Origin: Membranipora membranacea
Taxonomy: Eukaryota > Bryozoa > Gymnolaemata > Cheilostomatida > Membraniporidae
Reading direction: 5' to 3'
DNA length: 64,000 nt
NCBI GenBank assembly: GCA_914767715.1
Contig: OU612067.1
Span: 26,820,162-26,884,161 of the forward strand
Part shown: in pieces, positions 1-49,357 of the stretch
Numbering within the stretch: position 1 is the first letter of the stretch
Layout: each line of letters begins with the position of its first letter
Translations under genes and position numbers: made by a program
The notes under the pieces: generated by a model
Seen by the model: the letters and a program-made list of their open reading frames with translations, nothing else
Told to the model about the DNA's origin: nothing
Databases searched by the model: none

Positions 1-2107
1 GAACATTATATGGTGAGATTTTGTGTAATATAGCGTGAGCAGAACAATAACTTGTTATAAACCAACAGTATTTCAATAGCCATTTTTATCTTTCATGTGT
101 ACCATACACTGTAACATATCACACCATTCTGGTCTAAGTCAAATATTTTCCTAACAAATGCTAATTCAGTTATGTATGTGGACTTCAATGCACTACTCTG
201 CTGATTTGTGTACACAAACAAACTCACCTTTGCTTACTGAATGCTCTGTCCAATACAAGAAATGTTGTAATCATTGTGTCTATCGATCCATATTTATATA
301 CCAAGTTGTGGATCACAGCTTCGTTGTTAAAGATGCAACTAAATTGCCAAATGTTATTACGATCACTTCCTAATGATAGTTCACATACAAATCAATGAAC
401 TGAATTGCACTCACTAACATCTGATATTGTACCAGCAGGAACTTAATGTTGGTACAGAGATTGAATGTAATCGGGTTTTGAAATTCCCATGTTGATAGCT
501 TTTCCCTGAGTTCGTCAAATTTATTAAATTGCCAAAATCAAAACGGAGATTGAACCCAATGACAATCAGTACAAGGCATTTCCCTTTCCAATTCCTTGTC
601 ATGTTGGTGTTGTTATCGAGTAAGTTAACCACTCCAACACTCACAAATTAGGTGTATATCAATCTTAGTTTCCGTAGATTTTGCACCTGTTAACTTCATA
701 AATGATTGTTCACGCTGCTTGAATTTATTATTTACATTTAGACTTAGGTGGAAAATGAAATGTCAATATCAATTTCCCCTTCACAATACTGCACTTTTTT
801 GTTGCTCAATACAGTGTCATGCAGCGGCTGGTCTGACAAAAAGGGAAATGCATTAACAAATACAAATACATTGTACTAAAGTTATAACCAGCTTATATTG
901 CGCATTATGAAATATTAATTCAATGCTATTAACACCGGACAAAGGACAAAGGACAAAACTTAAGTCTATGTGGTTTGTTCCTGCTGAGATTTTCTAAAAA
1001 GGAGGCAATATCACTAGCAATAAAATGATGATTTACAATATAATGTGGAAAAAAACAGGCAAACTCATGATGTATAATATTGATAGTTGATTTCCTTTTT
1101 CTGCTTCCATGCATGAGCAAGTTGACACTATGATATTACTATATATTGATACGTGCAAATCTCAGATCAATAAGTTCAGTTATTAAGTTATTGTTGGCAA
1201 TAGGAAGGTTCTCATAGAAAATATGGCTTTGAAGAGTATATTTCCCAGCCCATACAAGTATTACCAACATACAGAACATGATGTGTAGTTTGTACTATTT
1301 GTACCATTTTACAATGGCTAGAGATTTGGTGTCATAATGCCAAACCTAAGCAATGGCAAATGATGCTGTATGTCATATAGGTAGCACCGGCCAAAAGTTT
1401 GAAGCTACCTGTGTTTCTGGGACAATATGACATCAGATGTTGCTGAGATCATATATAAAATCAGTCCATGAATATTAGATATTTTACTGATAGAGAGAAG
1501 GCATCAATAGATAATTTGTAGGTTGAGAATTAATTCTAGAGAGCCCACCTCAAATGCGTTCATATCGAAAGATTGAGACATAGGTACTAAGAATTACTGA
1601 TTAATTATCTTATAATTTACTTTATGGCCTGCCTCTCACACAATGATTAATATTCATCAAGTGTTTTGCTCAGCACGCTTCTAAATCCAGTAGTCTACAC
1701 AGCATATTATCCGTTTGGAGTTTGGTTGGAGGCAAAATTATCAACAGACATCCATATATATTATTAAAGAAGGTCTAGTTGAACAGTCCCCTCTCTAAAG
1801 CTAACAAATCTATGAGGATTGAGAAAGTGTTCCTTATGTATCAACATTTCATAGTAGCTTTGTTAGAGGCTAAATTTACCACCAATTTGTGGAAAATCAA
1901 AGCATGTGACTTTGTGACTCTAAGGCATAGACATACATAAACATACATAGTGATCTTGTGCACTTAAGCAGAAATTCACTTTTATTTCGAAAATATCTTA
2001 TCAACTGATATCTAAAGATCACTTTTTGTGGTTGATATTGTCATCCAGATGACTTAATCCAACAACATTGTATTGCGACAGTTGTCTTGTGCTTCTCATA
2101 ATATAGT
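1..2107. other. no gene recognised
   Basis: This is AT-rich sequence upstream of receptor unit A. The short open frames have no motif, no splice-site support and no paralog elsewhere in the window. I looked for the CUB-like and CCP exons that precede the membrane exon in units B and D and did not find them, so unit A either lost its extracellular half or joins to exons outside the window. Confidence 0.5.
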
Positions 2108-2171
2108 TTGAGTGCCAAGTTTCGAAATCTAATTCCATTCAAATTTTATTCTCTCAATTTTTCATCTGAAG

Positions 2172-5100
2172 TTTATAACCTCAACTTCACAAAAATTTTA
2201 GAACACAATGATGAAAGAGAACTACAAACAATATCAAACAAAACCCACAGGGGAGATGATACAAACCAATCAGAGATGAGCTTGAAATCCTACTATTACA
2301 TTGTGATTGGAGGATCCATATCCCTTGTATTGGGTGTCTTGGCTGCTTGCATATATCGTTTAAGTCTAAGGTTAGTCCAGTCAATTGTAATTAATTAATT
2401 TATGGATGAGCATATCACCGAGTAAGGATATACAGAGGGGGAACTTTAGTGATAGCTATAGTGCCTGCGGTTTTTGATTCACTGGGAAAAATCATCAATA
2501 AGGATACCTGCCAGTTTTACTAATTATGTAAGTTAAAATGGCAAATGGACACGCAGACATACCTACCTACTGTGATGGGCCATAATTCATTCTGTATTTA
2601 AATTAAAGACTGATTTCCAGCTTTTTGAAATGCCCACTATTCAAGCTATACATCATATCGTTGTCGTTTTTTGCTAGGATGCTAGGATGCTAAGTTAGCC
2701 GGGATTATAAAATGAGTTACATAATATAGATTTACTGTGACTTGGGTCAGTACACGGACATTTCCTAATTTTGATGACCAGAAGTCAATCAATCGTCACA
2801 CGTAAATCTATATGAGTAAATCATCTCAAAAACCTGGATAAATTGAAGCCTATGTATCCTAGCAAAATGTGACAACAAGGATATTTTTAAAAAAATAGGA
2901 CATTTCAGAAAAGTTGGAAATCAGTCTTTAAGTTAAATACAGAATGAATTATGACCTATTATAGGTAGGTATGTCTGCATGACAAATTGCCATTCAAACT
3001 TACGTAATGAGTAAAATTGGCAGGTATCCAGATTGATGATATTCCCCCAGTGAATCTAAAACAGCAGGCACTATAGCTATCATTAAAACTTCCTCTCTGT
3101 TTACCTCTGTTAGCATATTATTTAAATTACTGGATTTTACTCAATTTATGCACATGAAGTATAGATGATGTATCCAGTTTCAATTGCTTTCTTAGCATAC
3201 TTTCATGATGTATTTAATATTAAAAGAACGAAGCTGCTGCTGTTGTTGTTGACAAGGGAAGGCAAGCACAAGTTTGTTATCATTGTCAATCATTATTAGA
3301 GCTAGATTTTTTTGTTATAGATATACAAGGTGCAAAGTCCAACATGTAAAAAGTTCCCGTCCTTTGCCTGCCAGGCCTGTCGTACATGGTAAGTAGTAAT
3401 AACCTAACTCAACTACATAAAAGTGTGATCATTAATGCCAATAGGTGGGGATAAACGAGGAAATATATATATATATATATTGTGCTGAGTCTTGTAACCA
3501 AAATCAACTTCAAATGCAATAAACCAAAATTAACAGTTTAGATAAATCTCAGTCCCCTCAGTAAAAGGTTTGAGATGTGTGAAGTAGATGAATAAAAAAA
3601 TTATGCTGTATGGCTAATGTCTCATAAAATAACGTACATGAACAATATTTTATCAGTGTGAAAATCAATTTTAAAATAAAACCTGTAATTCAGAAAGGAT
3701 AAAAAATTATAAGAAGTTGGCCTTTACAAAAATACACAAATGTCCCGAGGGTCCTTAGGGAATAAATGTCTTCGCAACCCATGTATTTTAAAAAGAGTTC
3801 CCGTTTCCTTTTTGAAGTTAACAGCAATTGATACAAATCTTTGGTGCAAAAGTTACATCGGCATCTTTTGTCACCTGTAAAGTCGATATATTGAGGCATG
3901 ATATCCTGGCACACTTGTTCACACCTTTTTTCTGATCCTTTAAAGTTTTTAACGAGATTCTGATCTAAAAAATTGTGAGATTTGTTAAGTGATAATTGTT
4001 ATTTTCCTATACACTGCAGCATGCATAAAAATATGCCTTGACAACGATTTGAGCTGTATGAACATAAATTGCCGATTTAGAATATAGATTCCCTGTGGAA
4101 ATGCATGAAAGATATATCATTCATCGAAAGTCCCATCCTCACCTAGTTTAAATGCTCAAGACTTTGTGACATTTTATTATCAAATATTCTTCTCTTTGAT
4201 GAGTGAATGCAACAAACTGTAACATACAGATGTTTGAGCGTGTGAACTTAGCTGTCTATAGCCCTAGGATAACATGTGTTATAACACAAATGCAGAACAA
4301 CACCGCATATATTTTAGCGGCTTTGCTGAATTTACCTACTGCTCAAAAATACACCATACCATTTTATAACAGCTACGTCAAATTCTAACTACTCTATGCG
4401 TATGCTGCTAATTGATAAAAAAACAACTTACTAACTTGGTTTGTTCCATCCTCACAATATAGTTTCCGTTGCGCTGATAAGCTATGAATTTGCAGAGCTA
4501 TGGTTATGCCGATCAAACTCAAAGTGTTTCTGTTCATATCTAATTCTAACAATCCTTTGAATTTGAGATTTATGGTCAGACGTCACCAACAACTAATGCC
4601 CATCTGAACTTTGAGGCACTTTTATACCAGTTTCAAATAACTTAATCCCTATCCCAACCAATCAGAGATTTCATGGCTATAATTACAAGCTTTGTAAAAT
4701 CACGGTGAAAAATGTGAACGGTTTACACTTGTAATCATAAATAATTTTTTGTTGTTATTGGGCCTGAATGGTCACAAACCAAAGTGGAAATACTGTCAAC
4801 TATCTACATATATTTTTTGAAGATATAGACATAGAAGCTCAAACTAATACGGATAATGACTTGGCATCAGATTATGAAGTTATCTCTCCGACAGATTCGA
4901 ATCTGGACTACTCAATTATCAACGAGTCTGATATGATTAGCAACTTCCAGCAAAATATTTGTACATCGCCTCTCAACATGTTGTGGGAACTGACCACGGC
5001 AAATGAAAGGTCGATAAAAAGACCTGCCTGTTTATCTCCTAACTTGTTAGAATCTTTTTATCGCGAGATGAACAGAAGGGGAATACACTTCAATGACAGG

Positions 5101-5544
5101 GAAAAAAGGTCCCATAATCCAAAACACCAAATACCTGAACAATTGACTCGAAAGCCACAACTGCACAGCTCTCCTCCAGAACCTTGTCCGGGGAGTCATA
5201 CTTCTCAAAAACATTCTGAAACGCCCTGCCAATCTGGCAATCAGACATCTAATGAGCTGGCAGCTACCTCACATATAGTCCATAAAGTCTATCTTCGACC
5301 AAAGACCGATATATTGATACATCAACCTCAAGAACAGCCTGCTACAAGTGACAGACCAAATGAAACCCATGATGATGGACATCAGGTTGCCTCAACATCT
5401 AATCTGTCATTAGAGACCAGTGACAGTTTGTGCAATAATGCCACAGCAACTCCAATAGAATATGAAGACGCAGAGAGTGTGTATGATGTATACTTTCTCT
5501 TACTTTTTGCCCCCAGTTTTTTGCTCCTTTTACGTCAATTATAA
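2172..5544 (+). CDS. ITAM receptor unit A, 3' half
   Basis: Three exons are visible: 2172-2370 (stalk and membrane helix), 3321-3388 (68 nt, basic juxtamembrane segment rich in R, P and H) and 4823-5544 (cytoplasmic tail). The membrane segment is a glycine-rich IVIGG...LVLGVLAAC helix near residues 45-62 of the first exon. Donors are AAG|GTTAGT and ATG|GTAAGT. The tail starts acidic (DIDIEAQTNTDND), then has YEVI, eight residues and YSII, which fits ITAM spacing, then a long polar region and an EYEDAESVYDVYFL end. The stop used by C and D (TAA after YFL) is TTA here, so A reads 14 residues further into a hydrophobic end. The extracellular exons are not in view. A secreted cysteine-rich gene lies antisense in the last intron. 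The role as a signalling receptor is inferred from architecture. Confidence 0.7.
2433..3105. mobile_element. foldback MITE-like element in unit A intron
   Basis: Arms at about 2433-2690 and 2840-3105 are inverted copies of each other. Both contain the tract ATAGCTATAGTGCCTG or its complement, GGCAGGTATCC, and the tract around TTGGAAATCAGTCTTTAA. Single arms or shorter forms recur near 19,640-19,850, 21,360-21,560, 27,840-28,070 and 48,000-48,520, always inside the receptor array. This suggests a foldback element that predates or travelled with the duplications. I saw no coding capacity. Confidence 0.65.
3690..4537 (-). CDS. secreted eight-cysteine protein, nested antisense in unit A
   Basis: There are two exons on the minus strand: 4537-4432 (start codon and signal peptide) and 3964-3690. 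The intron is GTAAGT...TTTTTTAG in phase 1, and the joined frame is 381 nt, 126 residues. The signal peptide has the hydrophobic core LSLIGITIALQI, with likely cleavage after HSLSA. The mature part has eight cysteines: LYC, KRCEQVC, the cluster RCRCNFC, MGC, and one near the end. A conserved TKDLYQ stretch and a dibasic KRKRE lie between. The whole gene lies in the intron between the juxtamembrane and tail exons of receptor A. The C terminus runs about 10 residues past that of B and D. I do not recognise the family; a secreted ligand or effector is inference. Confidence 0.75.
4873..4920 (+). other. ITAM motif, unit A
   Basis: The codons read YEVI, eight residues, YSII. This matches the canonical YxxL/I-x6-12-YxxL/I immunoreceptor tyrosine activation motif. 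Each half also has an S or L at the -2 position, so each half alone would match a loose ITIM. Units B and D keep the same spacing with substitutions. Confidence 0.75.
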
Positions 5545-7139: not shown

Positions 7140-7345
7140 GCGCTTTGTACAGGTGGCCTTTGAAATATCCACGTTACGGGTGACAATCGATGCAAATGTA
7201 ACTTTTGCACCAAAGATTTATATCTAACGCTGATAGCTTTAAAAGCAAACGTGAACTCTTTTTAAAACATATAGGCTGCAAAGACATATTCTCCCTAAGG
7301 AGCATCAGGAGAACCTCATTTCCGAATTATTGTAGAGGCTAACTA
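7140..7345 (+). pseudogene. inverted relic of the eight-cysteine gene, exon 2
   Basis: The plus strand reads GDNRCKCNFCTKDLY, then a frameshift, then a segment matching KRELFLKHIGCKDIFSLR and a final YCRG stop. This is clearly the second exon of the gene that is nested on the minus strand in units A, B and D. It lies opposite a minus-strand juxtamembrane exon relic at 7766-7699, so the whole unit is present here upside down and decayed. No signal-peptide exon was found. Confidence 0.75.
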
Positions 7346-7698
7346 TGTTTTTGTTATTTTTTGACTGGGTATTTATTAAGTGTTGTTTATGTATTTTCTT
7401 TTGTGGGACATTGGTCGTATTTTATTTTACTATCTTTTATCTTTCCGTCTGCTTTATACTTCTCAAACCTATTATTATAATCAAATAAACTATGGGTTAC
7501 AGTTTTTTGCCTTTCAAGTTTGATTTCTAAGACTGAAATATAGCAGGCAGATCATAACTAAAAATTATTCAATTGAATGGAGTTTCCTAAATATACAAAT
7601 GACTTAATTGTAAAACTGAACTTAGAGTTACTCAGGCAATGGTAATATAATTTTCAATCGCCTCTACCATGTAGTTGTGGTAGGTTATTGTCACTTAC

Positions 7699-15755: not shown

Positions 15756-18700
15756 ATGGACAAGTAAGTAACTGAACCATAACACTCAAATGAATATAAG
15801 CTTCTCGGCCTATTGGCTAAGATCAAAGTGTCACTGCCAATGGCCGATAAGTGCCAGTTCAGTTTTGGCAGCTCGCTGCACACCCAAGATTAGGAGGTCA
15901 ACCATGGCCTCACCTCTAGGATGCATTCTAGTTTTCTAGGATGTATCACATTCTCAGTATGAGGATTAAGGGCACCTTGCGTCCCTCTTTAGGGGCAGCC
16001 CAATCTTCTGTTTCTTTGCAAACAGCAAATGAATATAAGTTGTTGCGGGAAGTATAGCTGCCAACATTATTTATGTTATATCAGCATTATAGTGAGAGTT
16101 TTTAAAGTGCGTAAACTGTAGGGATAGCTGGTAGTGGCATTTCATTATCAACCACTTTCCCAACCACTGCATGTTGGGAAAGTGGTTCATAATGAAACTA
16201 TAGTTACAGCAATATTTTAGTCAATACAGATTTAAAATTTGATGTTTCAGATTGATTACTGATATCAAGAGAGAGAACAGGAGAGTTGTTTTTATCTTCT
16301 TGCTGAGTTGTCTACACCTATCTTCAGTAGCTGGTGAGATTAATGATAAGTTATTTATTTATTTATCTATTTATTGAGGTTTTCTAAAAGTTATACCATT
16401 ATGTACTTAGTTTTCATAAAATAGTAGCGTTAAATACTTTGGGATCGGACAGGTTTACGAATAAGATTGATTGTTATCGTAAATTGTTCAGGTTTTGCCT
16501 GACTATTGCTTTCAAAAGATCTGTACTTCATGATAATATACAAGATGGCTGCCCTGTTAACTGCGGATCAAGTTTCTGTATGGCGTAACAGCCACAGAGT
16601 CTTTTATCATGGTGTATAGATATCAGATTACATTCAATTCCAATGGGTAGATGGGATTCACATTAAAATGACAATTTGGTTATATTTTGAGAATAAAACA
16701 ATTTGCTATTGTTTTTTCAAGAATATCAATCAATCGAATACACTTGGCAGTTGTCTTCTCCTGTAAGGTCTTTGTTTCTGGAGACTCACAGTTGGATATT
16801 TCTTACAGGTGGTGATCTAGCAGATAACAAATACGCTGCTCTTTTCTGCGGATCTTCTAACGACAATAGTGAGATTAATCTGAGAGATATGACTACGACA
16901 AGTGAAGGAGTTGTCCGCATGCCTACTAAATATGGCAATCAAGGTTTTTCTTATGGATGTACTGTGACCATAAGAGGCCTCGGAAATGCCATTATCATCT
17001 TCCAACAAAAAAGGCTGAATGCATCAAATGGACCTTGTTTGAAAAATAACATCATCAACAACAAAATCCAGGATGGACCATGCCATGATCAGAGGGTATA
17101 CTTTAATGGCCTGATGCACCTAAAATTAGAAGTTGGGGAGCCAGTACAGCCAGGTTTTGTCATTAATTTTAAAGGTGAGTCTGTATGTATAGCATATAAA
17201 AGGAGCCTTATTGAACATCTGAGGCTAATTTTAAACCATATATGAATCATGGGTAATATTCAATACTCCTAATTCACTATGATAATATCCCACATTTGTT
17301 TTTTGTAACTTGTAAGTTTATCAGAGGCCTACTACCAATGATGTCTTATGTTCCGTGATATTTATACTTTCAGTTTACCCAGCATTCACCATGAGCAGAT
17401 CTCCTTCACCTTATGATGCCCAGACACATAAGGAAGGTTATATTACTGACTACTCCTTTTTGCCTATTCCTCATGGAACAAGAAAAGAAGTGACCGATAT
17501 ATTTATGATAATAGAAGGTCTACCTTCGTCTGCAACAGTGCTCTTCAGTCTTGAAGTGATCAATATGACAGCTTCAAATGAATCTGAGTTCACCATTAAA
17601 TCAAAAAAATGGTATGACAACAATAGCGTGATGCGTGAAATCTTTCATACAAGTTCATTGGTCAAAAGTCAAATACAGAGAGTTTCAGGCATCAACTCCG
17701 TAACAATCAAATACGCAACGAAAGATTCTTCTAAAGGAGGCGAATATGTACGTCTGAAATATAAAGGTATGTGGTTCGGTTCTCAGCTATGAATATGTGT
17801 CCCATAGTTTGACAGAGATGTGATGGTATGGAGTCCTAGGGGCGTATTTATGATAAGCGATCTGGAGGTACACCAGAATAAAATCCTCTTTTCTTTCTTA
17901 TAATGTAACATTACGGGGAAAAATATGGGGCGCTTCACGCATTTGTAACCGAAAGTGTCAATCAACGCCACTGTATATGTTATTTGGCAGACAGGGTACT
18001 TGCCATAGTATTAAATGTTGTTAATCTGGTGCAGAATTGACGAACAAATGAACACCATTACCAGGACATTGTTAGAATTTCAACAATGTCAACATAGGTT
18101 AGTGAATGCAAGGAGTACTCCTTGGTGAAAGGGAGGTGGGAGGGGAATTTGAGCAGACTTTTTTCTTTCAAACTGGCATGCTGGTAGGATATCAGATTGA
18201 AGGAAAGAAGATGTGACTAGCATAAAAGCCTATCATTGGCTGTGAACTGTAGTTCTAAGTTTTCCTTAGCAATAAGTTTTCCTTAGCTGGTTGAGGGAGG
18301 GCAACTTCTTATTCAGTTGACCTTGATTATTTGTCATGTCTTGGGACTGATTGCCAAGACAAGGAGAGTGTTATAAGGGCAGAAAAAAATCATTTTCGTA
18401 CCAAAAACTTTATTTCTTTATTTGCAAATGAATGATAATTCCTCCTTAGTTCAACTTAGTTACTTATTTTAACGAACCTTTCCTGTGTGGATCCTATCAT
18501 TATGCTTCATCAGTGGCCTGTTACTGTTATTCTCATTGCTAGTTAGACATATGTTTTATGGTGATCTACCCTCCTGGAATGGAGTGAAAGTCAATTTAAT
18601 ATTTGGTTTTCTTACGAGACTTACCGGCGACATGTACCAAATTAGCGGAATTGATGTTTTTTTTTACTTCTGTAGTGGAGTCATGTGTAGATGAAGGCAT

Positions 18701-21700
18701 CCCATATTTGGCCACATTGAAGCAGACTCATTTCAACTCATCACAGTATAAAGCATCGTGCATGTCAGGACATGCTTTGGAAAACAAGGCTGAAACATTC
18801 ACATGTAAAAATCAGCAATGGACACCAGCTCTGAAATTCTCTAGAACAAAGACTACAAGCCTACCACTCTCACCTACCACATCAGAAGGTAACACAAACC
18901 CAAGGTTTCAGACAAATATTGTCTCCCCCACACAAAATTGTTTCTTTAAATCTATGAAATAAGAGAGTTTATAGTTTGAGCGAGTTTTAAAATCTAATTC
19001 TGCTCTATTTATAATCTATCATGTTTTCACTTGCAGGCACTGATATATAAATATATATATATTCATGGATAAGGGGACATATTCTGCCCTGAACAAGCAT
19101 ATTATTGGCAATTTATGTATCGATGCTGGAAACAGTTTCTCATCTTTGATTCGTCTAAAAGTTCAGTAATGCTACAGCCGACCCCTCGTAAACATTTGTC
19201 AGGTAGCTTGCCTGAGTCTTTAAAGCTCATTACTGGGATGTCGGTCAATGCATAACAATAAAGCTACTGTGATTCTAGCTAGATCCAATTACTGACACAA
19301 AGTTATACACTAATATAATTTCTTCAAAAATAGCCATAGGTATTATGTATTTTAACACTAATCCATGAATTCATATCAATGCTTGCGGGTTATAACCTCA
19401 ACTTTTCAATAAATTTACAACCCAATGGTGATGAAGGACTACGGACATTGTCCCACAAAAACCATATTGGAGATGATACTAAACTATCGGAGATCAGCTT
19501 CAAATCCTACTATAACTTTGTGATTGGAGGAAGCATATTCCTTATATTGGCTTGCTTGGGTGCTTGCATAATATATCGTTTAAGTCTAAGGTTAGTCCAG
19601 GCAATTTTATTAGTTAATACATGCTATGCAATATGCATATCACAAACTTAGTGCCTGCGGTTTTGAGTCTTTAAGTTAAATGCAAAATAAATTATGGACC
19701 ATCATAGGTAGGTATGTCTGCATAACAAATTGCCTTTGTAACTTACATTAGTAAAATTGGCAGGTATCCAGATTGACGATTTTCCTCCAGCAAATCAAAA
19801 ACAGCAGGCACTATAAATAGCTATCATTAAAGTTTCCTCTCTGTATACCTTAGTGAGCATATTATTGAAATTACTCAATTATACTCAATTCATGCATATG
19901 TTGGTATAGATGATATACGTGATTCAATTGCTTTGTTAGTTTCTTTTGGTGATGTATTTGTTTTTAAGAGAAGCCTAAGTCACATACAAGTTTTCTATTT
20001 TTGTCAATCACAATTCTTTGTTATAGATATCCAAGTAACAGAATCCGAGATGTAAGAAGTTCTCGTCCATTGCCTGCCAGGCCTGTCATACATGGTAAGT
20101 GATAATAACCTACCTCAACTACATAGTAGGTGCGATTATAAATGCCATTGTCTCACTCACACACATGAATTCAGATTGTACCGTTGAGTTATTATGGAGT
20201 TCAAAACCAAACTTCAAGGCAATAAACCAAAATCAACAGTTTAGATAAATCTCAGTGAAAGGTTTGATATGTGCGTAGTGGATGAATAAAAAAAACTATC
20301 AAATCATATCTCACAAAACAATGTACTTGATCAATGTGATAATCAATTTAAAAACAACTTGTAATTCAAAAAGATCATACCTCATCAAGCATAACAGGTT
20401 AACCTCTACAATAATACACAAATGAGATCGTCCCGAGGCTCCTTAGGGAATAAATGTCTTTGCAGCCCATATAATTTAAAAAGAGTTCCCGTTTTCTTTT
20501 TGAAGTTAGCAGCATTTGATACAAATCCTTGGTGCAAAAGTTACATCGGCATCTATCGTCACCAGTAAAGTCAATATGTTGAGGCATGATATCCTGGCAC
20601 ACTTCTTTACACCTTTTTCCTGATCCTTTAAAGTTTATGATAATATACTTATCTAAAAAATTAATAAATGTGTACAGTGATAACAGTTCTGTTCCTACAC
20701 GGTACTGGATGAAAATTATTGCGAATAGAAGTTTCCTGTGGAATGGATGAGAGAAATATCATCATTCAAAACTCCCATCCTTTTCCAGTTTAAAGGTTCA
20801 AGAGTTTGTGGCATTTTAATATTAAACATTCCTCTTTGATAAATGAATGCTGCAAACTGGAACTTAGCCAAAATTGAAACACAATCCTCAGCATGTTTTA
20901 CATCAACTATTCCCTCAACCCCACAAAGACTCACATGGACGCCTACTCAATAATGTTACAGGATCATCGCTACACTTTAGGGTCTTTGCTGAATTTTCTT
21001 TGAATTTTCCTACTTTTCATTTAGGACACCATACCATTATATAACAACTATGTCAAAGTATATAACTCTAATGAGTATCCTGCTTGACAAAGCTCACTTA
21101 CCAACGTCTGATGATCCATTGTCACAATATAGTTTCCGCTGTGCTGATAAGTTATGAATTTGCAGAGCTATGGTTAAGGTTATCAAACTCAAAGTGTAAC
21201 TGCTCATATCTAATTCTACTTATACAAACCTCTCGTAATTAATTGAGATTTATGGTCTGTCGCCAACATCAACTAACTACAATCTGAACTTAGGAGGCCT
21301 TTTATATAGCTTTTACATAACTTAATCCTCACACCAACCAATCAGAAACTTTGTGGCTATATTAACAACACAGAGTAAGGATATATCCAGAATGTATTAT
21401 GGACCATCATAGCTAGGGATGTCTGCAAACCAAATTGCCAAAATTTTTTTGATTAGTAAAATTGGCAGGTATCCAGAATGACGATTTTCCTCAGCGAATT
21501 AAAAACCGCAGGCACTATAACTATCATTGAAGTGTACCCTCTATATCCTTACTCTGTGTTTACAAGCTAGTATGTAAAACCAAGGGGTAAACTGTCGATT
21601 ACTAGTTTTGCATAGAGTATTAATATTATATTATATTAATAATATTATCTTTTGGATTGTGACTTGAATTATATTTCTGTTGAAGATATCGACATCGAAG

Positions 21701-22401
21701 CCCAAACTAATACAGATAATGACTTGGCATCAGATTATGAAGTTATCTCCTCGACAGATCCGTATCTTGACTACTCAACTATCAACGAGTCTGATATGAT
21801 TAGAATTTTCCAGCAAAATATTTGTACATCGCCTCTCAACATGATGCGGGAACCGACCACGGCAAATGAAAGGTCGATAAAAAGACCTGGCTGTTTATCC
21901 CCTAACTTGTTAGAATCTTGTTATCGCGAGATGAACAGGAGGGGAATACACTTTAATGACAGGGAAAAAAGGTCCCAGAATCCAAAACACCAAATACCTG
22001 AACAATCGACCCAAAACCCACAACTGAACAGCTCAACTCCAGAACCTTGTCCAGGGAGTCATACTTCTCAAGAACATTCTGAGACGCCCTGCCAATCTGG
22101 CAACCAGACATCTAACGAGCTGGCAGCTACCTCACATACAGAACACAAAATATATCTTCGACCAAAGAACAATATATTGATTCATCAACCTCATGAACAG
22201 CCTGCTACAAGTGACAGACCAAATGAAACCAATGGTGATGAACATCAGGTTGCCTCAACATCAAATATGCCATCAGAGACCAGTGATAGTTTGTGCATTA
22301 ATGCCACAGCAACTCTGATAGAATATGAAGACGCAGAGAGTGTGTATAACTTTTCGCCTCAGTTTTTTTGCATTTTACGTCAATTATTGTTGAAACATTA
22401 A
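15756..22401 (+). CDS. CUB-CUB-CCP receptor with ITAM tail, unit B
   Basis: Exons: 15756-15763, 16251-16333, 16809-17174, 17374-17766, 18676-18888, then a membrane exon ending at 19590, 20027-20094 and 21686-22401. ATG GAC AA splices to an exon coding a basic N terminus and a hydrophobic signal core (VVFIFLLSCLHL). Exon 3 is CUB-like with four cysteines and a GFVINFKG end. Exon 4 is a second CUB-like domain without cysteines. Exon 5 is a sushi domain whose fourth cysteine is phenylalanine. All extracellular introns are phase 1, the mark of shuffled domains. The membrane exon has lost the acceptor seen in C (GCAG became GCGG). The nearest in-phase AG is before 19437, which would give 667 codons in frame. 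Skipping to 19037 gives a soluble form instead. The tail carries the ITAM. I find no named family. Confidence 0.7.
15801..16025 (+). mobile_element. SINE headed by U2 snRNA 5' sequence
   Basis: The element begins CTTCTCGGCCTATTGGC, followed by TAAGATCAAAGTGT. This is the first about 30 nt of U2 snRNA with one substitution and one inserted A, after which similarity ends. It is flanked by perfect 14-bp direct repeats CAAATGAATATAAG (15787-15800 and 16026-16039). Unit D keeps the single, uninserted site near 43,070. The 3' part, with GGCACCTTGCGTCCCTCTTTAGGGGCAGCCC, also occurs alone at 34,603-34,672. The duplication fits LINE-driven retroposition. It lies in the first intron of receptor B. Confidence 0.85.
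16130..16200. repeat. small hairpin MITE
   Basis: A tract of TTTCATTATCAACCACTTTC followed by CCAAC is followed after about 9 nt by its near-perfect reverse complement. The arm sequence CATTTCATTATCAACCAC is shared with the hairpin at 40,964-41,082 and, as one arm only, with 43,178-43,210. It lies in the first intron of receptor B. Confidence 0.7.
17767..18675. other. long intron of receptor B
   Basis: This intron joins the second CUB-like exon to the CCP exon. It is longer than its counterparts in C (389 nt) and D (257 nt) because of extra AT-rich sequence at about 17,860-18,400. I see no gene, terminal repeats or clear target duplication in the extra part. Confidence 0.6.
19037..19265 (+). 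other. possible alternative 3' exon giving a soluble form of B
   Basis: A good acceptor (TTTTCACTTGCAG) precedes 19037. Joined in phase to the CCP exon it adds GTDI and then a stop at 19048-19050, giving 358 residues with no membrane helix. AATAAA follows at 19257. The segment from here to about 19,385 is absent from D. It is present in C, where the same frame runs 42 codons before its stop. It therefore looks like inserted sequence that brought an acceptor, stop and polyadenylation signal. Confidence 0.45.
20399..21207 (-). CDS. secreted eight-cysteine protein, nested antisense in unit B
   Basis: Exons are 21207-21102 and 20652-20399. The donor TTG|GTAAGT and acceptor TTTTTTAG are in phase 1, and the joined frame closes at 119 residues. 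The signal core is LSLITLTIALQI. The mature chain keeps all eight cysteines (LYC, KRCKEVC, RCRCNFC, MGC, YYC) and ends at the CRG stop. It lies wholly in the intron between the juxtamembrane exon (ends 20094) and tail exon (starts 21686) of receptor B. A minus-strand frame at 20,716-20,934 in its own intron shares an MPQTLE core with unit D and could be an optional exon. The intact reading frame despite divergence from A and D argues that it is functional. Family not recognised. Confidence 0.78.
21736..21783 (+). other. ITAM motif, unit B
   Basis: The codons read YEVI, eight residues, YSTI, with an extra tyrosine (PYLD) between the two halves. This is the same spacing as in A and D. Confidence 0.75.
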
Positions 22402-25175: not shown

Positions 25176-26591
25176 GAATATATATATAAGGAAGGTTATA
25201 CAATTGACTACTCCTTTTTGCCTATTCCTCATGGGGCAAGAAATGAAGTGACCGATATATTTATGAAAATAGATCGTCTACCTATGTCTGCAACAGTGCT
25301 CTTCAATCTTGAAGTGATCAATATGACAGCTTCATTTGAATCTGAGTTCACCACTAAATCAAAAAAATGGTATGACAACAATAGCATGATGCGTGAAATC
25401 TTTCATACCAGTACATTCATCGAAAATTAGATACAGAGAGTTTTAGGCGACCACTCCATAACAATCAAATACGTAATGAAAGATTTTTCTAAAGCCGGCA
25501 GATATGTACGTCTGAAATATAAAGGTACGTGGATCGTTATCCGCTATGTCTGTGTATCTCATTGTTTGACAGAAATTTGGTGGTATGCAGTCCTAGGACC
25601 GTATTGATGATGGAGCGATCTGGATCTAAACCAGAATAATATCTTTTTTTTATTTGCAAATAAGTGATAATTACTCCTTAGTTTCATTTAGTTACTTATT
25701 TGAACGAACCTTTGCTGTGTGGATTCTATTATGACGCTTCATCAGTGGCGTGTTACTGTAATTCTCATTGCTAGTTAGACATATGTTTTATGGTTATCTA
25801 CTCTTCTGAAATGGAATGAAAATCACATTAATATTTGGTTTTCTTACGAGACTTACTGGCGACACTTACCAAAATTAGTGGAATTCATACATTCAATTTC
25901 AATACTTCTGTAGTGGAGTCATGTGTAGATGAAGGCATCCCATATTTGGCCACATTGAGGCAGACTCATTTCAACTCATCACAGTATAAAGCATCGTGCA
26001 TGTCAGGACATGCTTTGGAAAACAAGGCTGAAACATTCACATGTAAAAATCAGCAATGGACACCAGCTCTGAAATTCTCTAGAACAAAGACTACAAGCCT
26101 ACCACTCTCACCTACCACATCAGAAGGTAACACAAACCCATAGTTTGGGCGGCCAAGCTTCAGACAAATATTGTCTCCCCCACACAAAATTGTTTCTTTC
26201 AATCTATGAAATAAGAGAGTTTATAGTTTGAGCGAGTTTTAAAATCTAATTCTGCTCTATTTATAATCTATCATGTTTTCACTTGCAGGCACAGATATAT
26301 ATATATGTTCATGGATAAGGGGAACATATTCGGCCCTGAACAAGCACATTGGCAATTTATGTATCAATGCTGGAAACAGTTTCTCATCTTTGATTCGTAC
26401 AAAAGTTCAGTAATGCTACAGCCGACCCCTCGTGAACATTTGTCAGGTAGCTTGCCTGAGTTTTTAAAGCTCATTACTGGGATGTCAGTCAATGCATAAC
26501 GATAAAGCTACCATAATTCTAGCTAGATCCAATTACTGACACAAAGTTATACACTAATGTAATTTCTCCAAAAATAGCCATAGGAACTGTG

Positions 26592-27552: not shown

Positions 27553-28682
27553 GAACTGTGTATTTTACCACTAATCCATGAATTCATATCAATGCTTGCA
27601 GGGTATAACCTCAACTTTGCAAAAATTTTAGAACCCAATGATGATGAAGGACTACGGACAACGTCCCGCAAAAAACCATATTGGAGATGATACTAAACCA
27701 TCGGAGATCAGCTTCAAATCCTACTATTACGTTGTGATTGGAGGAAGCATATTCTTTATATTGGCTTGCTTGGGTGCTTGCATAATATATCGTTTAGTCC
27801 AGGCGATTGTAATTAGTTAATAAATGCTATTGATGATGCATATCACATACTTTAGTGATAGCTATAGTGCCTGCAGATTTTGAGTCTTTAAGTTAAATAC
27901 AGAATAAATTATGGCCAATCATAGGTAGGTATGTCTGCATGACAAATTGCTTTTGTAACTTACATAATTAGTAAAATTGGCAGGTATTCAGATTGACGAT
28001 TTTCCTCCAGTAAATCAAAAACTCCAGGCACTATAAATAGCTATCATTAAAGTTTCCTCTCTGTATACCTTTCTGAGCATTTAATTGAAATTACTCAATT
28101 AAACTCAATTTATGCATATGTTGGTATAGATGATGTATCCAGTTTCAATTGCTTTCTTAGCATACTTTCATGATGTATTTGTTATTAAAAGAACGAAGCT
28201 GCTGCTGTTGTTGTTGACAGGGGAAGGCAAGCACAAGTTTGTTATCATTGTCAATCATTATTAAAGCTAGATTTTTTGTTATAGATATACAAGGTGTAGA
28301 GTCCAACATGTAAAAAGTTCCCCGTCCTTTGCCTGCCAGGCCTGTCATACATGGTAAGTAATAATAACCTACCACAACTACATAAAAGTGTGGTCATAAA
28401 TGCCAATAGGTGGGGATAAAAGAAGAAATATGTATATATTGTGCTGAGTCTTGTAACCAAAACCAAACATCAAATGCAATAAACCAAAATTGACAGTTTA
28501 GATAAATCTCAGTGGCCTCAGTAAAAGGTTTGAGATGTGTGAAGTAGATGAATAAAAAAATATTAAATTATGCTGTGTGGCTAATGTCTCACAAAACAAC
28601 GTACATGAACAATCCTTTAGCAGTGTGAAAATTAATTTTAAAAAAAACCTGTAATTCACAAAGGATCAAAAATTATAAGAAG

Positions 28683-28934
28683 TTAGCCTCTACAAAAATA
28701 CACAAATGTCCCGAGGGTCCTTAGGGAATAAATGTCTTTGCAACCCATGTATTTTAAAAAGAGTTCCCGCTTGCTTTTTGAAGTTAACAGCAATTGATGC
28801 AAATCTTTGATGCAAAAGTTACATCGGCATCTTTTGTCACCTGTAAAGTCGATATATTGAGGCATGATATCCTGGCACACTTGTTCACACCTTTTTTTTT
28901 TCTGATCCTTTAAAGTTTTTAACGAGATACTGAT
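28683..28934 (-). pseudogene. eight-cysteine nested gene, unit C, exon 2 only
   Basis: The exon from 28934 to 28683 keeps its acceptor and most of its sequence (RCRCNFC, MGC, the YFCRG end). A poly-T run on the plus strand near 28,891 is four bases longer than in unit A, which shifts the frame before the first mature cysteine pair. The signal-peptide exon is gone because of the deletion at about 29,230. The gene is dead, like its host receptor copy. Confidence 0.8.
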
Positions 28935-30050
28935 CTAAAAAATTGTGAGATTTGTTAAGTGATAATTGTTATTTTCCTATACACTGCAGCATGCATAAAA
29001 ATATGCCTTGACAACGATTTGAGCTGTATGAACATAAATTGTTGATATAAGATATAGTTTCCCTGTAGAAATGCATGAAGGAAATATCATTCATCGAAAT
29101 TCCCATCCTCATCTAGTTTGAATGCTCAAGACTTTGTGGCATTTTATTATCAAATATTCTTCTCTTTGATGAGTGAATGCAGCTAACTGTAACACGCAGA
29201 TGTTTGAGCGTGTGAACTTAGCTGTCTATAAGACGAACAGAGACTATGAGATGAACAGAAGGGGAATACACTTTAATGACAGGGAAAAATGGTCCCAGAA
29301 TCAAAAAAACCAAATACCTGAACAATCGACCCAAAACCCACAACTGAACAGCTCTCCTCCAGAACCTTATCCGGGAAGTCTAAGAACTTCTCAAGAACAT
29401 TCTGAAACGCCCTGCCAATCTGGCAACCAGACCTCTAACAAGCTGGCAGCTACCTCACATACATACAGACCACAATGTCTATCTTCGACCAAAGACCAAT
29501 ATATTGATACATCAAGAACAGCCTGCCACCAGTGACGGACCAAATGAAACCCATGATGATGTACATCAGGTAGCCTCAAAATCGAATTTGTTATTAGAGA
29601 CCAGTGACAGTTTGTGCAATAATGATACACCAACTCCGTTAGAATATGAAGATGCTGAGAGTGTGTATGATGTATACTTTCTCTAACTTTTTGCCCCCAG
29701 TTTTTTGTTATTGTTACGTCAATTCTCATTATAACACTAAAGACGCTGGAAAGTATCATCCAGGTTTGACAGTAACAAAGAACGCATTGGTAATGACTTT
29801 GTGTGGCTTTATGTTGATATCAAGTTGGTGTTGGTAAAAGGCGTCATATGTTTCCTACTTTGGAGCATTATCAGCTTAGTGGTTTATAAGAAAGGTATTA
29901 GATGAGGCAGTAATCTTGCATCTCTCAAGAGGCAATCTACTCATGGATCTTGGGCTACTGGGTACATTCACTATCCCATTCATGTATCCCCAAACATGCA
30001 GTTCCGAATATGGTACCAACTAATAAATTATTAAGATTGTTACACCTCAC

Positions 30051-40439: not shown

Positions 40440-40560
40440 GATAAATCATATATATCATGTATATGGGTTGCAAAGAAATTTTTTCCCTTAGGAGCATTAG
40501 GAGGACCTCATTTTTGTATTATTGTAGAGGCTAGCTATGTTTTTTGTTATCTTATAACTG
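40440..40560 (+). pseudogene. second inverted relic of the eight-cysteine gene
   Basis: The plus strand reads MGCKEIFSLRSIRRTSF, then LYYCRG and a stop, matching the C-terminal third of the nested secreted protein. The cysteine cluster exon part and signal peptide are missing. It lies beside an inverted, MITE-interrupted juxtamembrane exon relic on the minus strand. Confidence 0.75.
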
Positions 40561-43036: not shown

Positions 43037-46000
43037 ATGGACAAGTAAGTAACTGAACCATAACACTTCAATGATAATATAAGTTCTGTTGCGGGAAGTA
43101 TAGCTGCCAACATTATGTATGTTACCAGCATCAAAGTTAAAATAGTTTAAGTGATCTAACTGTGTCTGGATAGCTGGTAGTGGCATTTCTTTATCAACCA
43201 CTTTCACAACAACTGTTTAAGAGCTTATAATCTAATTACAGCAATATTGTAGCCAATACAGATCTAAAATTTGATGTTTCAGATTGATTACTGATATCAA
43301 GAGAGAGAACAGGAAGGTTGTCGTTATCTTCTTGCTGAGTTCTCTACACCTATCTTCAGTAGCTAGTGAGTTTAATGATAAGTTTTACCATTGTGTACTA
43401 AGTTTTCATAAAATGCATACGTTGGATACTTTAGTCTCGGACAGGTTAACGAATCGGATTGTTTATAATCGTAAATGGCTCAGGTTTTGCCTGACTATTG
43501 CTTTCAAAGGTTCCGTACTCAATGATAATATACAAGATGGCTGCCCCGTAAACTGCGGATTCAGTTTCTGTACGGCGTCACGGCCACAGAGTCTTTTATC
43601 ATGGCGGTTTGATATCAGAATACATTCAATTGCAAAGAGTAGATGGGACCCACGTTGAAAACACAACTTAGTTATATTTTGAGAATAAAACAATATATGC
43701 TTTTATTTTTTCAAGAATATCAATCGATCGAATACACCTGGCAGTTGTCTTATCCTGTAAGATCTTTGTTTTTGAGACTCACAGTTGGATATTCCTTACA
43801 GGTGGTGATATGGCAGATAGCAAATACGCTGCTCTGTTCTGCGGATCTAATGAAAACAGCGAGATTAATTTGAGAGATATGACTACAACAAATGAAGGTG
43901 TTGTCCGCATGCCTACCCCATATGGCAATAAGCGCTTTTCTTATGGATGTACTGTGACCATAAGAGGCCTCGGAAATGCCATTATCATCTTCAAACATAA
44001 AAGGCTGAATGCATCAAGTGGACCTTGTTTGACGAATAACGTCATCAACAACCAAATCCAGGAGGGACCATGCCATGATCAGAAGGTATACTTTAATGGC
44101 CTGATGCACCTAAAATTAGAAGTTGGGGAACTATTCCAGCCAGCTTTTGTCATAGATTTTAAAGGTGCGTTGTATAGCATTCAAATGAGTCTGTTTGAAC
44201 ATCCCATGTAAATTTTCAACCATCTAGGTAGTTTGGGTAATATTCAATACACCAAATACCCTTTGATGATATCTGCATTGATAACCCAAGTTTTTTTTAG
44301 CAACTCAAGTCATTGAAACAACAAAGGCCTACCTGCCAAAGCTGTCTTATTATATGTTCCATGATATTTTTTCTTTCAGTTTACACGGCCTTCACCATGA
44401 GTAGATCTCCTTCACCTATTGATGCAAGGACATATAAGGAAGGTTATATAACTGACTACTCCTTTTTGCCTATTCCTCATGGAGAAAGAAATGAAGCGGC
44501 GGTCAAAATTATAACAACAAGAGGTCTCCCCTTGTCTGCAACAGTGCTCTTCAATCTGGAAGTGATCAATATGACAGCTTCAAATGGTTCTGTGTTCATA
44601 ATTGAATGGCAATGGCAATGGCCTGGCAACAAACCTGTTTTTCATGACATCTTCCGTACCAGTACATTTGTCAATAATTGAATACAGAGAGTTTCAGGCA
44701 ACCACTCCATAACAATCAAATACGTAATGGAAGATTCTTCTAAAGCAGGCGAATATGTACGTCTGAAATATAAAGGTATGTGTAAGAGTTTCAATTTTAC
44801 CCCAAATTTTTTAGTGCTAATAACACTTTCAGAATTTTTGAATTTTTCAAATCTAAAATTGGAAAACGTCTTCAATTCTTTTAACCAACCTCCTTTGTGT
44901 GGATTTGATAGGATTCTACCAGGCCTTATAAGTTAGAACCTTGCTATAACTGTGTGTGTGTATTACTAGTCCTATGGTGATCTTCCCTTCAGAAATGTGA
45001 TAGTGGAACTCTTGTCTTTTCTTTTTCTGCAGTGGAGTCATGTGTAGACGCGGAAATCCCATATTTGGCCACATTGGAACAGACTCATTCCAACTCATCG
45101 CAGTACACAGCATCGTGCATGTCAGGACATGTTTTGGAAAATAAAGCTGAAACATTCACATGCAAAAATCAGCAATGGACACCAGATTTGAAATGCTCTA
45201 GAACAGAGAATACAAGTCTCCCATTCTCACCTACCGCATCAGAAGGTAAAGTGAACCGATAGTTTGGACCACAAAGCTGCAAACGGATATGGTCTCCCCA
45301 CATTAAACAGCTTCTAGAGTCTTGAGATAAGAAAGATTACATTATTGAGCGCCAAATTTCAAAATCTAATATTTTTCAATTTATATTCTATCATGTTTCC
45401 ATCTGCATGCTGTTTATAACCTCAACTTCACAACAATAGAACCCAAGAATGAAAGACTATGGGCAACGTCAAGCAAAACCCACCAGGGAGATGATACAAA
45501 ACCGTCAGAGAAAAGCTTCAAATCCTTTTATTACATTGTGATTGGAGGATGTGTATCCCTTATATTGGGTGTCATGGCTGGCTGCTCATATCGTTTAGGT
45601 CTAAGGTCAGTCCAGACAATATTTTGAATTATTTAATTAATGATTAATGCTATGGTATGAGCGCGTCTTGGCTCCCATTCTGTGAGGAGCCTGGCCTGAT
45701 AGAATAAGCAGTTATACTAGAAATGCTGGATAATAAATGCCGCAAAACTTCAGGAATGTGAATGATATACACTCAGGTTGTGGATTTGGTTTCTGATGGA
45801 TGGCCAATTGGCGATGTCATTATAAGTGCAAATTAGAATTGCTGTCCTTTCCATGCCACCCATGAGGTAGACCCTCCCCATGCTCCCTCCTTGCTATTTT
45901 TAATCTGGCCCCACCGGAATTTGAACTCAGGCTGAGATCAAACACTCCCACCGCTCAGCCACGCTGGGCTGCTGAAGTTTGCAAAGCTCAGTGCGAAATA

Positions 46001-49000
46001 ATCCAGATGTTTAAATTTAATGATGTATAATAATATCTGTCTTCACCAGGAATTGAACTCGAACCTCTCGCGCAACAAGCATGTTATAATTGTGGTATAT
46101 TTTATAAAAATAATGGGATATACACATACACACTTGCTTCTATTTTGGTCTCAACTTGGATTTGTACTTTGGCCGCTTGTGCTGTGATGAGTACACTAGC
46201 CACTCGGCCTCGCCAACCCGCTGAAGCTTACAGATTTTAATTTATATGTTGGAAATAAATATGGGTAAAGTAAGCTGTTTTTAAATTTTTAATTGATTAT
46301 AAGCTTTCATGGCACATGTCAGACAAAAAAATATAATTAGCACACCCTCAACTTGTTTTACTACACATATGTGGTTCTACACAGTACTGTGATTCAGCAG
46401 TTTCTTCTATTTATTTCCAAAACACTTTTTGTAAAAGCGATATGAGGTACTAGATACGGGTTTTCATATACACATTTATCATAAACACAAAACAGAAGTT
46501 TTGTGGATTATTTAATTAATGCTATGGTATGAGCATATTATTGAAATTAATCAACTATTTTTAATTTTAACATAATTGTTGTTATAGATGATGTATCCGG
46601 ATTCATTTGTTTTTTTTTAACATATTTAAAAGAAGAAAGCTGCTACAAGTTTTCTTTCATTATCAATCACTATTAAAGTATTTTTGTTGTAGATATACAA
46701 GATACATAGTTCAACATGTAAGAAGTTCTCGTCCATTGCCTGCCAAACCTGTCATACACGGTAAGTGATAATAACCTACCACAACTACATAGTAAGTGTG
46801 ATTAAAATTGCCATTGTCTCACATACGCACATAATTTCAGGTTGTACCCAATATGTGATATTTATATTTAGGAAATATGTAGTGCTATTCCTGTCTTGAC
46901 TTTAAAATCAAATCCATAACCACAGTTTAGATAAATCTTGAGGCATATAAAGTGGATGGACGGATAAACATAATAAAATTTAATCATCCTATGTGGCCAA
47001 TGTCTCACAAAACAATACACATGAACATAAATGTGATCATCCAAATTTAAAAGTTATATTCAGGTTTAAAAGGAAAAAAAAAACAGACTAGCCAGTACAA
47101 TAAAACACATTAGTAGGGGATGTCCCAAAGCTCTTTAGGGTATAAATGTCTTTGCAGCCCATGTATTCTAAAAAGCGTTCTCGTTTGCGATCTGAAGTTA
47201 ACAACATTTGATACAAATCTTTGGTGCAAAAGTTACATCGGCATCTAACGCCGCTTATAAAGTAGATGTTTCGAGGCATGATATCATGACACACTTCTCT
47301 GCACCTCGTTCCTGTTCCTTTATAGTTTATAACGATATACTGATCTAAAAAAAGATTGGATGTGTAAAGTGATAACGGTTATGTTCATACGGAATTCGAC
47401 ATGAAAAAATATGTTCTAGATGAAAACATTGCAAACAGTATCTTGTAGAAATGGCAGAGAGAAATATCACTCTGCTCAAGTTTAAATACTCAAGAGTTTG
47501 CGGCATTTCCATATCCAAACATTCCTCTTGGTTAAATAAATGCCACAAAAATCTGGAACGTACAGCTGTTTGAGCACTTGAACTTAGATGTCAACATTAG
47601 TCATAAAACAAGTGCAGAGTCTAAATTTTCTGAATTTTCCTTACTTTTCAGATATAAGACACCATGCCATTTTATAACAAATATACATCAAAGTCTAAAA
47701 ACTCAAGAGTATGCTGTTTGACAAAGTTCACTTACCAATTTGTGATGTTTTATCATCACAGTGTAGTTTCCGCTGCGCTGATAAATTATCAATTTGCAGA
47801 GCTATGGTTAAGGTGATCAAACTCAAAGTGTAACCGTTCATATCTAATTTTACTTATACAAACCTCTCGTAATTAATTGAGATTTATGGTCAGACGCCAA
47901 CATCAACTAACTACAATCTGACCTTAGGAGGCCTTTTATATAGCTTTTACATAACTTAATCCTCACACCAACCAATCAGAAACTTTGTGGCTATACTTAC
48001 AACACATCGTAAGGATATATAATGATGTATAATCAATGATAACAATTGTGCCTGTGGTTTTTGATTCACTGAGAGAAAATCGTAAACAGTTTGATGTCAA
48101 AACTCATTAACTCTAAATGTTACAGTGGGACAGTGTTACAGTGATTTATGTTATACTTGGGTCATTACACGATCATTTCCTTATTTTGATGTCGTATGTA
48201 AAACTATGATATAACTTATTTCAAAAACTCAGATAATTCATAGCCTATGTACCCTATAGCAAAAAATGACAACAATATGGTGTATGGCTTGTAGATTGGA
48301 AATTTTAAAACAGTTGGAAATCAGTCTATTGTAGGTTAAATGCAGGATGTATTATGGCCCATCATAGTTAGTTATGTCTGCATACCAAATTGCAATTGTT
48401 ATTTATATAAATTGTAAGAGTGGCAGGTATCCAGATTGACGATTTTACCCAAGGGAATCACAAACCGCAGGCACTATAACTATCATTGAAGTGTACCCTC
48501 TATATCCTTACTCTGTGTTTACAAGCTAGTATGTAAAACCAAGGGGTAAACTGTCGATTATAAATTTTGCATATAGTATTAATATTATATTATATTAATA
48601 ATACTATATTATCTTCTGGATTGTGACTTGAATTATCACCAACTCTAGGGGAAAATATTCATATATTTCTGTTGAAGATATCGACATAGAAGCCCAAACT
48701 AATACAGATAATGACTTGGAATCAGATTATGAAAATATCTCATCAACAGATCCATATCTGGACTACTCAACTATAAACGAGTATGATATGATTAGCAACT
48801 TCCAACAAAACATCTGTACATCCTCTCTCAACAGTATGCGGGAACGGACCACAGAGAATGAAAGGTCGATAAAAAGACCTGCTTGTTTATCCCCTAACTT
48901 GTTAGAATCTTGTTATCGGGAGATGAACAGAAGGGGAATACACTTTAATGACAGGGAAAAATGGTCCAAGAATCCAAAACACCTAATGCCTGAACAATCG

Positions 49001-49357
49001 ACCCAAAACCCACAACTGAACAGCTCAACTCCAGAACCTTGTCCAGGGAGGCATACTTCTCAAGAACATTCTGAGACGCCCTGCCAATCTGGCAACCAGA
49101 CTTTTAACGAGCTGGCAGCTACCTCACATACAGAACACAAAATATATCTTCGACCAAAGGACAATTTATTGATTCATCAACCTCAAGAACAGCCTGCTAC
49201 AAGTGATGGACCAAATGAACCCAATGGTGATGGACATCAGGTTGCCTCAACATCTATTTTGCCATCAGAGACCAGTGATAGTTTGTGCAATAATGCCACA
49301 GCAGCTCCAATAGAATATGAAGACGCAGAGAGTGTGTATGATGTGTACTTTCTCTAA
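43037..49357 (+). CDS. CUB-CUB-CCP receptor with ITAM tail, unit D (one in-frame stop)
   Basis: Exons: 43037-43044, 43283-43365, 43802-44164, 44380-44775, 45033-45245, 45440-45605, 46693-46760, 48678-49357. Together they make 1977 nt, 659 codons in frame, with consensus donors throughout. The order is signal peptide, CUB-like (four cysteines), cysteine-free CUB-like, a complete sushi domain with four cysteines and the QQWTPDLKC end, stalk, membrane helix (IVIGGCVSLILGVMAG), basic juxtamembrane exon and ITAM tail ending VYDVYFL. The acceptor used in A for the membrane exon is mutated here; the TAG before 45440 keeps phase. One defect remains: TGA at 44679-44681 in exon 4. It may be a pseudogene, a polymorphic null or a truncated secreted form. 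Confidence 0.7.
45663..46515 (-). mobile_element. composite tRNA-headed SINE insertion
   Basis: About 850 bp are inserted between direct repeats TTAATGCTATGGTATGAGC (45644-45662 and 46516-46534). On the minus strand there are two tRNA-like heads. One, near 45,975-45,907, has A box TGGCTGAGCGG and B box GAGTTCAAATTCC. One near 46,230-46,050 has GGCCGAGTGGCTAG and GGTTCGAGTTC with a longer spacer. Long target repeats fit LINE-mediated insertion. It lies in the intron between the membrane and juxtamembrane exons of receptor D and is absent from the other units. Confidence 0.7.
47088..47841 (-). CDS. secreted eight-cysteine protein, nested antisense in unit D
   Basis: Exons are 47841-47736 and 47344-47088, with donor TTG|GTAAGT and acceptor TTTTTTTAG, phase 1, joined frame 120 residues. 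The signal core is LSLITLTIALQI. Mature cysteines are in LHC, TRCREVC, RCRCNFC, MGC and FYC. The region between the second and fourth cysteines is the most changed among copies, while the cysteines and the CNFCTKDLYQ core are fixed. It lies inside the last intron of receptor D, on the other strand. A minus-strand frame at 47,345-47,548 shares MPQTLE with unit B and could be an optional extra exon. Function is unknown; a secreted partner of the host receptor is a hypothesis. Confidence 0.78.
48728..48775 (+). other. ITAM motif, unit D
   Basis: The codons read YENI, eight residues, YSTI. Both tyrosines and the +3 isoleucines are kept although the residue between them has changed relative to A and B. 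Confidence 0.75.

Follow-up and report, generated by a model that had tools for sequence, protein, structure and literature searches.

A predicted secreted eight-cysteine gene nested antisense in an ITAM receptor gene, duplicated as a two-gene cassette in the bryozoan Membranipora membranacea

In the colonial bryozoan Membranipora membranacea, a small gene for a predicted secreted protein lies antisense in an intron of a gene for a sushi/ITAM receptor, and the two genes form a cassette of about 100 copies on ten chromosomes that has been duplicating as a unit. The window, by which we mean the whole stretch of 64,000 nucleotides analysed here (chromosome 3, 26,820,162-26,884,161), holds four copies of this locus, A to D, the features of which are collected in Table 1. 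To the window we added 110 kb fetched around it, so that 174 kb were searched in total for the surrounding cluster, and the genome searched comprised 339,339,785 bases in 18 contigs (tzMemMemb1.1, PMC10290214).

The nested gene in the window and its cluster

In A, B and D, as the first-pass annotation had proposed, an antisense two-exon gene occupies the intron before the ITAM exon and encodes a signal peptide with eight cysteines after it. Its exons join at GT-AG sites across phase-1 introns of 467 bp (A), 449 bp (B) and 391 bp (D), and the joined frames are open over 127, 120 and 121 codons, stop included, exactly as had been read; the encoded product is predicted to be secreted, with about 95 mature residues and the eight cysteines. 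The same annotation held that one deletion in C had taken both the signal exon and the start of the ITAM exon, and the alignment of A with C bears this out: the two match over A 2923-4260 (C 27883-29230) and again over A 5065-5751 (C 29248-29940), leaving about 800 bp gone from C, promoter included. C is also frameshifted by one base near the start of exon 2, a lesion absent from the earlier description.

Table 1. Features of the receptor loci A to D and of exon-2 copies lying outside a receptor (positions in the window)
Feature	Position	Strand	Remarks
A receptor, transmembrane exon	2273..2371	+	matched part
A nested gene, exon 2	3690..3964	-	seven cysteines; stop about 9 codons later than in other copies
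A nested gene, exon 1	4432..4537	-	signal peptide and first cysteine; donor GTAAGT
A nested gene, TATA box	4620..4626	-	TATAAAA, 89 bp before ATG
A nested gene, CCAAT box	about 4658-4662	-	ATTGG
A receptor, ITAM tail exon	4816..5544	+	YEVI-x8-YSII
Orphan exon-2 copy	7167..7396	+	frameshifted; without exon 1 or receptor; orientation opposite to the window's nested genes
B receptor, N1	16809..17174	+	distal ectodomain exon; ends by eye; no Pfam match
B receptor, N2	17374..17766	+	ectodomain exon; ends by eye; no Pfam match
B receptor, sushi exon	18676..18888	+	PF00084; 20.8 bits, cut-off 20.7
B receptor, transmembrane exon	19490..19591	+	matched part
B nested gene, exon 2	20399..20652	-	
B nested gene, exon 1	21102..21207	-	
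B nested gene, TATA box	21300..21308	-	TATATAAAA
B receptor, ITAM tail exon	21679..22401	+	YEVI-x8-YSTI
C receptor, N2 and sushi exons	25194..26140	+	in-frame stop in N2
C remnant of nested exon 2	28683..28937	-	ends approximate; one-base frameshift; signal exon deleted
C receptor, remaining ITAM tail exon	29248..29683	+	start deleted
Orphan exon-2 fragment	40448..40531	+	decayed; without receptor; orientation opposite to the window's nested genes
D receptor, N1, N2, sushi and transmembrane exons	43771..45606	+	in-frame stop in N2
D nested gene, exon 2	47088..47344	-	
D nested gene, exon 1	47736..47841	-	
D nested gene, TATA box	47934..47942	-	TATATAAAA
D receptor, ITAM tail exon	48671..49357	+	YENI-x8-YSTI

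Five more complete two-exon copies (L1 to L5) lie in the cluster, all of them antisense between the transmembrane and ITAM exons, and the frame is open in 8/8 two-exon cluster copies. The description of the eight cysteines as fixed applies to seven of the eight complete cluster copies, which retain all eight; L5, outside the window, has lost the last one. The cluster further contains six exon-2 copies that have neither exon 1 nor a receptor; five of them are frameshifted or partial. One frameshift is common to four of these orphans and is probably a single event that was copied, so that the copies are not independent.

Beyond the eight cluster copies, the two-exon structure was rebuilt at nine loci on C3, C9, C10 and C11, and all 17 complete copies are alike in having a signal peptide and one cysteine in exon 1, a phase-1 intron, and seven cysteines in exon 2. 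A comparison of dN/dS among the copies had been suggested at first pass, and codon models gave values below one rather than near it: omega was 0.54 for the eight cluster copies (p 0.004 against 1), 0.24 for five copies on C9, which form another cluster (p 3e-16), 0.34 for all 17 copies (p 9e-28), and 0.50, as a point estimate only, for a four-locus subset. The extra C-terminal residues of A were excluded from the alignments and the codon model. The nested gene is under purifying selection, and the only residues invariant in ten diverged members are the seven exon-2 cysteines and one glycine. The refuting outcome named at first pass, a dN/dS near one together with loss of cysteines, is therefore not what these copies show.

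A TATA box stands 76-105 bp before the ATG in 12 of the 17 copies (chance expectation 3.8% per 30-bp window), the five copies without one at that position being the C9 18.7-Mb group, and a CCAAT box stands 125-135 bp before the ATG in 10/17; together these boxes point to a separate antisense transcription unit. No Pfam family rose above the cut-off for 12 nested proteins, and no solved structure matched the nested protein. At the level of sequence, the nested gene is real and the observation more than chance, given the 8/8 open frames, the omega values and the recurrence across the genome.

Co-duplication of receptor and nested gene across the genome

The co-duplication of receptor and nested gene that was first proposed for the window extends well beyond it. 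Genome-wide, the first exon-2 query returned 56 matches, the N1 query 86 and the tail query 113. Twenty-two of the 56 exon-2 matches lie antisense and at most 6 kb downstream of an N1 match (controls: opposite strand upstream 2, same strand downstream 0, same strand upstream 6), and 27 of the 56 lie antisense and at most 5 kb upstream of a tail match (controls 1, 0 and 7). Adding a second exon-2 query (70 matches) gave 49 paired places among 110 merged tail places, and with a third query (70 matches) the pairing reached 88/110 ITAM-tail places on ten chromosomes, each with the nested match on the opposite strand and 479-2283 bp upstream. The corresponding controls were 0 for opposite-downstream, 0 for same-strand-upstream and 2 for same-strand-downstream placement, and when the nested places were shifted by 80 offsets, on average 2.5 and at most 16 were paired, the maximum reflecting dense clusters. 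Over 17 loci, the distances among nested genes follow those among tails closely (Mantel r 0.95, p 0.0002); within single clusters the two sets of distances correlate weakly (r 0.40, p 0.03; r 0.33, p 0.21; r 0.55, p 0.29).

The 44 nested places (of 132) that remained unpaired comprise a 14-copy array on C2, the cluster orphans, ten places on C9 at 13.2-13.5 Mb, and others. The array is tandem (C2:24.098-24.287 Mb), with its 14 exon-2-like copies on one strand and flanks that are similar too, and the four copies read have neither a recognisable exon 1 nor a recognisable ITAM tail in the 1.5 kb or so around them. Among the 22 unmatched tail places, five introns were read, of which one held the full cysteine pattern antisense, two an altered recognisable copy, and two none in 1.5 kb; Markov controls yielded the full pattern in 0/300. 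Two of the three diverged intron copies so found also have an exon 1 that encodes a signal peptide and a cysteine and has the donor GTAAGT. On C6, one more pair keeps exon 2 of the nested gene open, with exon 1 and ITAM tail unmatched within 20 kb. When P0004 (public assembly) was compared with L059, the nested exon at C2:34.88 Mb, 87 of 90 positions were equal, with a two-residue gap, and the relation looks like that of alleles.

The surrounding receptor and its state in the window

The receptor has the layout of a type I membrane protein, with a signal peptide, N1, N2, a sushi domain, a transmembrane helix, and a long tail with an ITAM. Sushi is the sole receptor domain recognised by Pfam, barely over the cut-off in B, and it was found repeatedly at other loci by tblastn; N1 and N2 matched nothing in Pfam, and the N2 profile matched antibody light chains weakly (E 0.08). 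A CUB label initially given to N1 and N2 was dropped, no CUB match having been found in Pfam or PDB profile searches. Among 18 tails read for the ITAM (YxxI/L-x(6-9)-YxxI/L), the motif is strict in 11, near in three and absent in four. The tail exon of A had no Pfam match, hence no kinase domain was recognised in it, and it carries the ITAM instead.

Within the cluster, N2 is the fastest part by pN/pS (0.90, as against 0.37 for N1, 0.39 for sushi, 0.35 for the tail and 0.59 for the nested gene), a value that may be inflated since the receptor estimates mix intact and damaged copies. Six copies were used for N1 and seven for the other sets, stop codons were skipped, and L4 (N2), L2 (sushi), and L5 and C (tail) were left out as split matches. 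In-frame stops interrupt N2 (C, D, L3), the sushi exon (L2) and the tail (L2, L3), and the L5 tail is frameshifted; by eye, the acceptor of the B transmembrane exon reads AC, and that of A reads AG. Some N1 matches open with TGA codons; these precede the probable acceptor and were taken as intronic. That the nested gene is intact at several loci with a damaged receptor suggests that it may not need its host receptor.

For A, N1, N2 and sushi exons were unmatched upstream of the transmembrane exon within the window, an absence that may be due to a palindrome or an assembly error. An assembly gap (C3:26810306-26810805) lies to the left of the window, flanked by direct and inverted copies that are 99.85-99.98% identical and extend to window positions 1-3032. 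The COX1 gene on the last contig reads with TGA = Trp, AGR = Ser and AAA = Lys, on which grounds a tunicate, a sponge or cnidarian, and an echinoderm origin were rejected. Elsewhere in the window we observed a frame with a THAP domain (30713-31087, +; E 9e-16), possibly of transposon origin; a match to zf-TFIIIC, a TFIIIC zinc finger family (51000-51431, -; 23.2 bits against a cut-off of 23), which is probably the end of a conserved neighbour gene; and a short tandem repeat (36140-36766) in which frames are open on both strands.

What the pair may be, and comparison with known systems

The best explanation that we can offer for the cassette, and one we hold to be about evenly poised between right and wrong, is that the nested secreted protein would act outside the cell as the soluble ligand, or an obligate partner, of the receptor whose gene encloses its own. 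A pair kept through about 100 duplications, a secreted part that has diverged down to its cysteines, a signalling motif and a fast ectodomain together make this a parsimonious reading. It supposes transcription, secretion, binding, signalling and a role in recognition, steps that we infer: the secreted protein would bind, the receptor would cluster, and the ITAM tyrosines would be phosphorylated, a step that in ITAM-bearing receptors goes with the recruitment of a Syk-type kinase. Nesting would hold the pair in near-complete linkage and leave each copy free to diverge as a private specificity. Transcribing both strands of one locus at once would be awkward, and the arrangement would rather suit partners made in separate cells or at separate moments, the former as with the sperm and egg coat of Ciona. 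Counting against a ligand and its receptor are the intact nested genes beside damaged receptors, the weak correlation of nested and tail distances within clusters, the five C9 18.7-Mb copies without a TATA box at the usual position, and the four of 18 tails without an ITAM.

Several other accounts have to be weighed against this. One that we think rather unlikely, yet worth keeping seriously in mind, is that the nested gene encodes an independent secreted effector, such as an antimicrobial or cuticle protein, which came by chance to lie in an ancestral receptor intron and was carried along by duplication. Nested genes can persist through duplication without interacting with their hosts (PMC3933685), the gene has promoter motifs of its own, and it is still open in several damaged receptors here; against this stand its retention at 88/110 places over deep divergence and the fact that few complete copies occur outside a receptor among the unpaired places read, the copies read in the C2 array having no recognisable exon 1 or ITAM tail. 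A secreted decoy or blocker, binding the receptor or its external target and tuning the signal, would also be predicted to be secreted, co-inherited and under purifying selection. One would look for a domain common to such a protein and the receptor; tblastn runs designed for other ends returned no nested-receptor similarity. Nothing here tells a decoy from the ligand model, and we regard it as unlikely. Tight linkage and co-duplication would equally suit a cis partner, that is, a subunit or chaperone of the receptor in the same cell, although a separate opposite-strand promoter would fit separate rather than joint expression, and we find this improbable.

The antisense position in the intron raises the thought of an RNA that represses the receptor, the protein being incidental, but codon-level purifying selection and invariant cysteines leave very little room for it. 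As to chance frames or assembly duplication, near-identical copies around the assembly gap do reach into the window (1-3032), but the nested genes lie outside that stretch, and duplication in assembly cannot account for diverged copies spread over ten chromosomes; to such an artefact, refuted as it is by omega below 1 and by the genome-wide pairing, we assign scarcely any probability.

Bryozoans fuse with or reject their neighbours. If the nested protein is indeed the partner of its receptor, the likeliest use of the pair in a colonial hermaphrodite would be self/non-self recognition between colonies or gametes; the same pair could alternatively serve innate immune recognition. Bryozoan fusion may be limited to close relatives, and kin recognition has been described in Bugula larvae (PMC11686985). 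Our literature search for the genes behind bryozoan recognition found none, most subscription papers lying outside that search. We raise tentatively, as a conjecture more doubtful than the partner role itself, that about 100 private ligand-receptor pairs, antisense-locked and spread through the genome, could supply the molecular basis, long looked for, on which bryozoan colonies or gametes recognise one another. The cassettes supply a finite list of candidate receptors together with a putative secreted partner for each, which makes ligand-receptor matching directly testable.

As far as the accounts drawn on here go, Ciona Themis is the closest known system in arrangement, Brassica SP11/SRK in logic, and Botryllus fester/FcoR in receptor style and colonial setting; the proteins are unrelated. 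The likeness to the s-Themis/v-Themis pairs noted at first pass stands for the antisense nesting in a receptor intron and fails for family membership, since neither protein matches a Themis domain: no Themis-type Pfam family appeared up to E = 1 in the 12 nested proteins or the receptor exons scanned. Of the Ciona proteins, v-Themis is fibrinogen-like; the Themis pairs are multi-allelic, their partners being expressed in egg coat and sperm. In Ciona, one partner is an extracellular recognition protein whose gene is read antisense from within intron 1 of the membrane receptor gene, the two being paired as a linked haplotype; s-Themis carries REJ, GPS and LH2 domains, with a PKD channel as well in the B type (PMC7018956). 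Both systems nest a gene, for a recognition protein in Ciona and for a candidate one in Membranipora, antisense in a membrane receptor intron, but the Themis genes, as described, are three pairs of polycystin-like and egg-coat proteins with the nesting in the first intron, whereas Membranipora has about 100 pairs of sushi/ITAM receptors and an eight-cysteine protein, with the nesting in the intron before the ITAM exon. If the ligand-receptor reading is true, an antisense-nested pair of the kind known from three Ciona loci can multiply into a genome-wide repertoire.

In Brassica, SP11(SCR) is small and secreted with four disulfides, its haplotypes are alike mainly in the signal sequence and the cysteines, and it shares one locus with the receptor SRK (PMC7530648). 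The nested product is similarly a small, predicted secreted, eight-cysteine protein that is otherwise variable and is encoded together with a receptor. However, SP11 and SRK are a plant defensin-like ligand and a receptor kinase at one S-locus with allelic haplotypes, whereas Membranipora combines an ITAM receptor, paralogous loci and antisense nesting. Should the ligand-receptor reading hold, the logic of plant self-incompatibility, a small cysteine-rich ligand with a linked receptor, may have re-arisen in animals.

Botryllus, another colonial animal, has in fester/FcoR a large polygenic family of sushi receptors arranged in pairs, with ITIM, hemITAM or related tyrosine motifs in the tails (PMC12065747). 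The Membranipora receptor resembles them in its sushi domain before a transmembrane helix, its tyrosine-motif tail and its colonial host. The fester/FcoR genes encode two adjacent membrane proteins with Ig domains, with no nested secreted partner in the parts of the description drawn on here; in Membranipora no Ig domain was recognised by Pfam in N1 or N2, and the N2 profile gave the weak hit to antibody light chains. Co-duplication of nested genes with their hosts is known from the LRRTM genes in alpha-catenin introns (PMC3933685); these are few pairs in which a membrane adhesion protein lies in a cytoskeletal gene, unlike the situation in Membranipora, where about 90 co-inherited nested pairs would, even without a ligand role, be an extreme case of nested-gene evolution.
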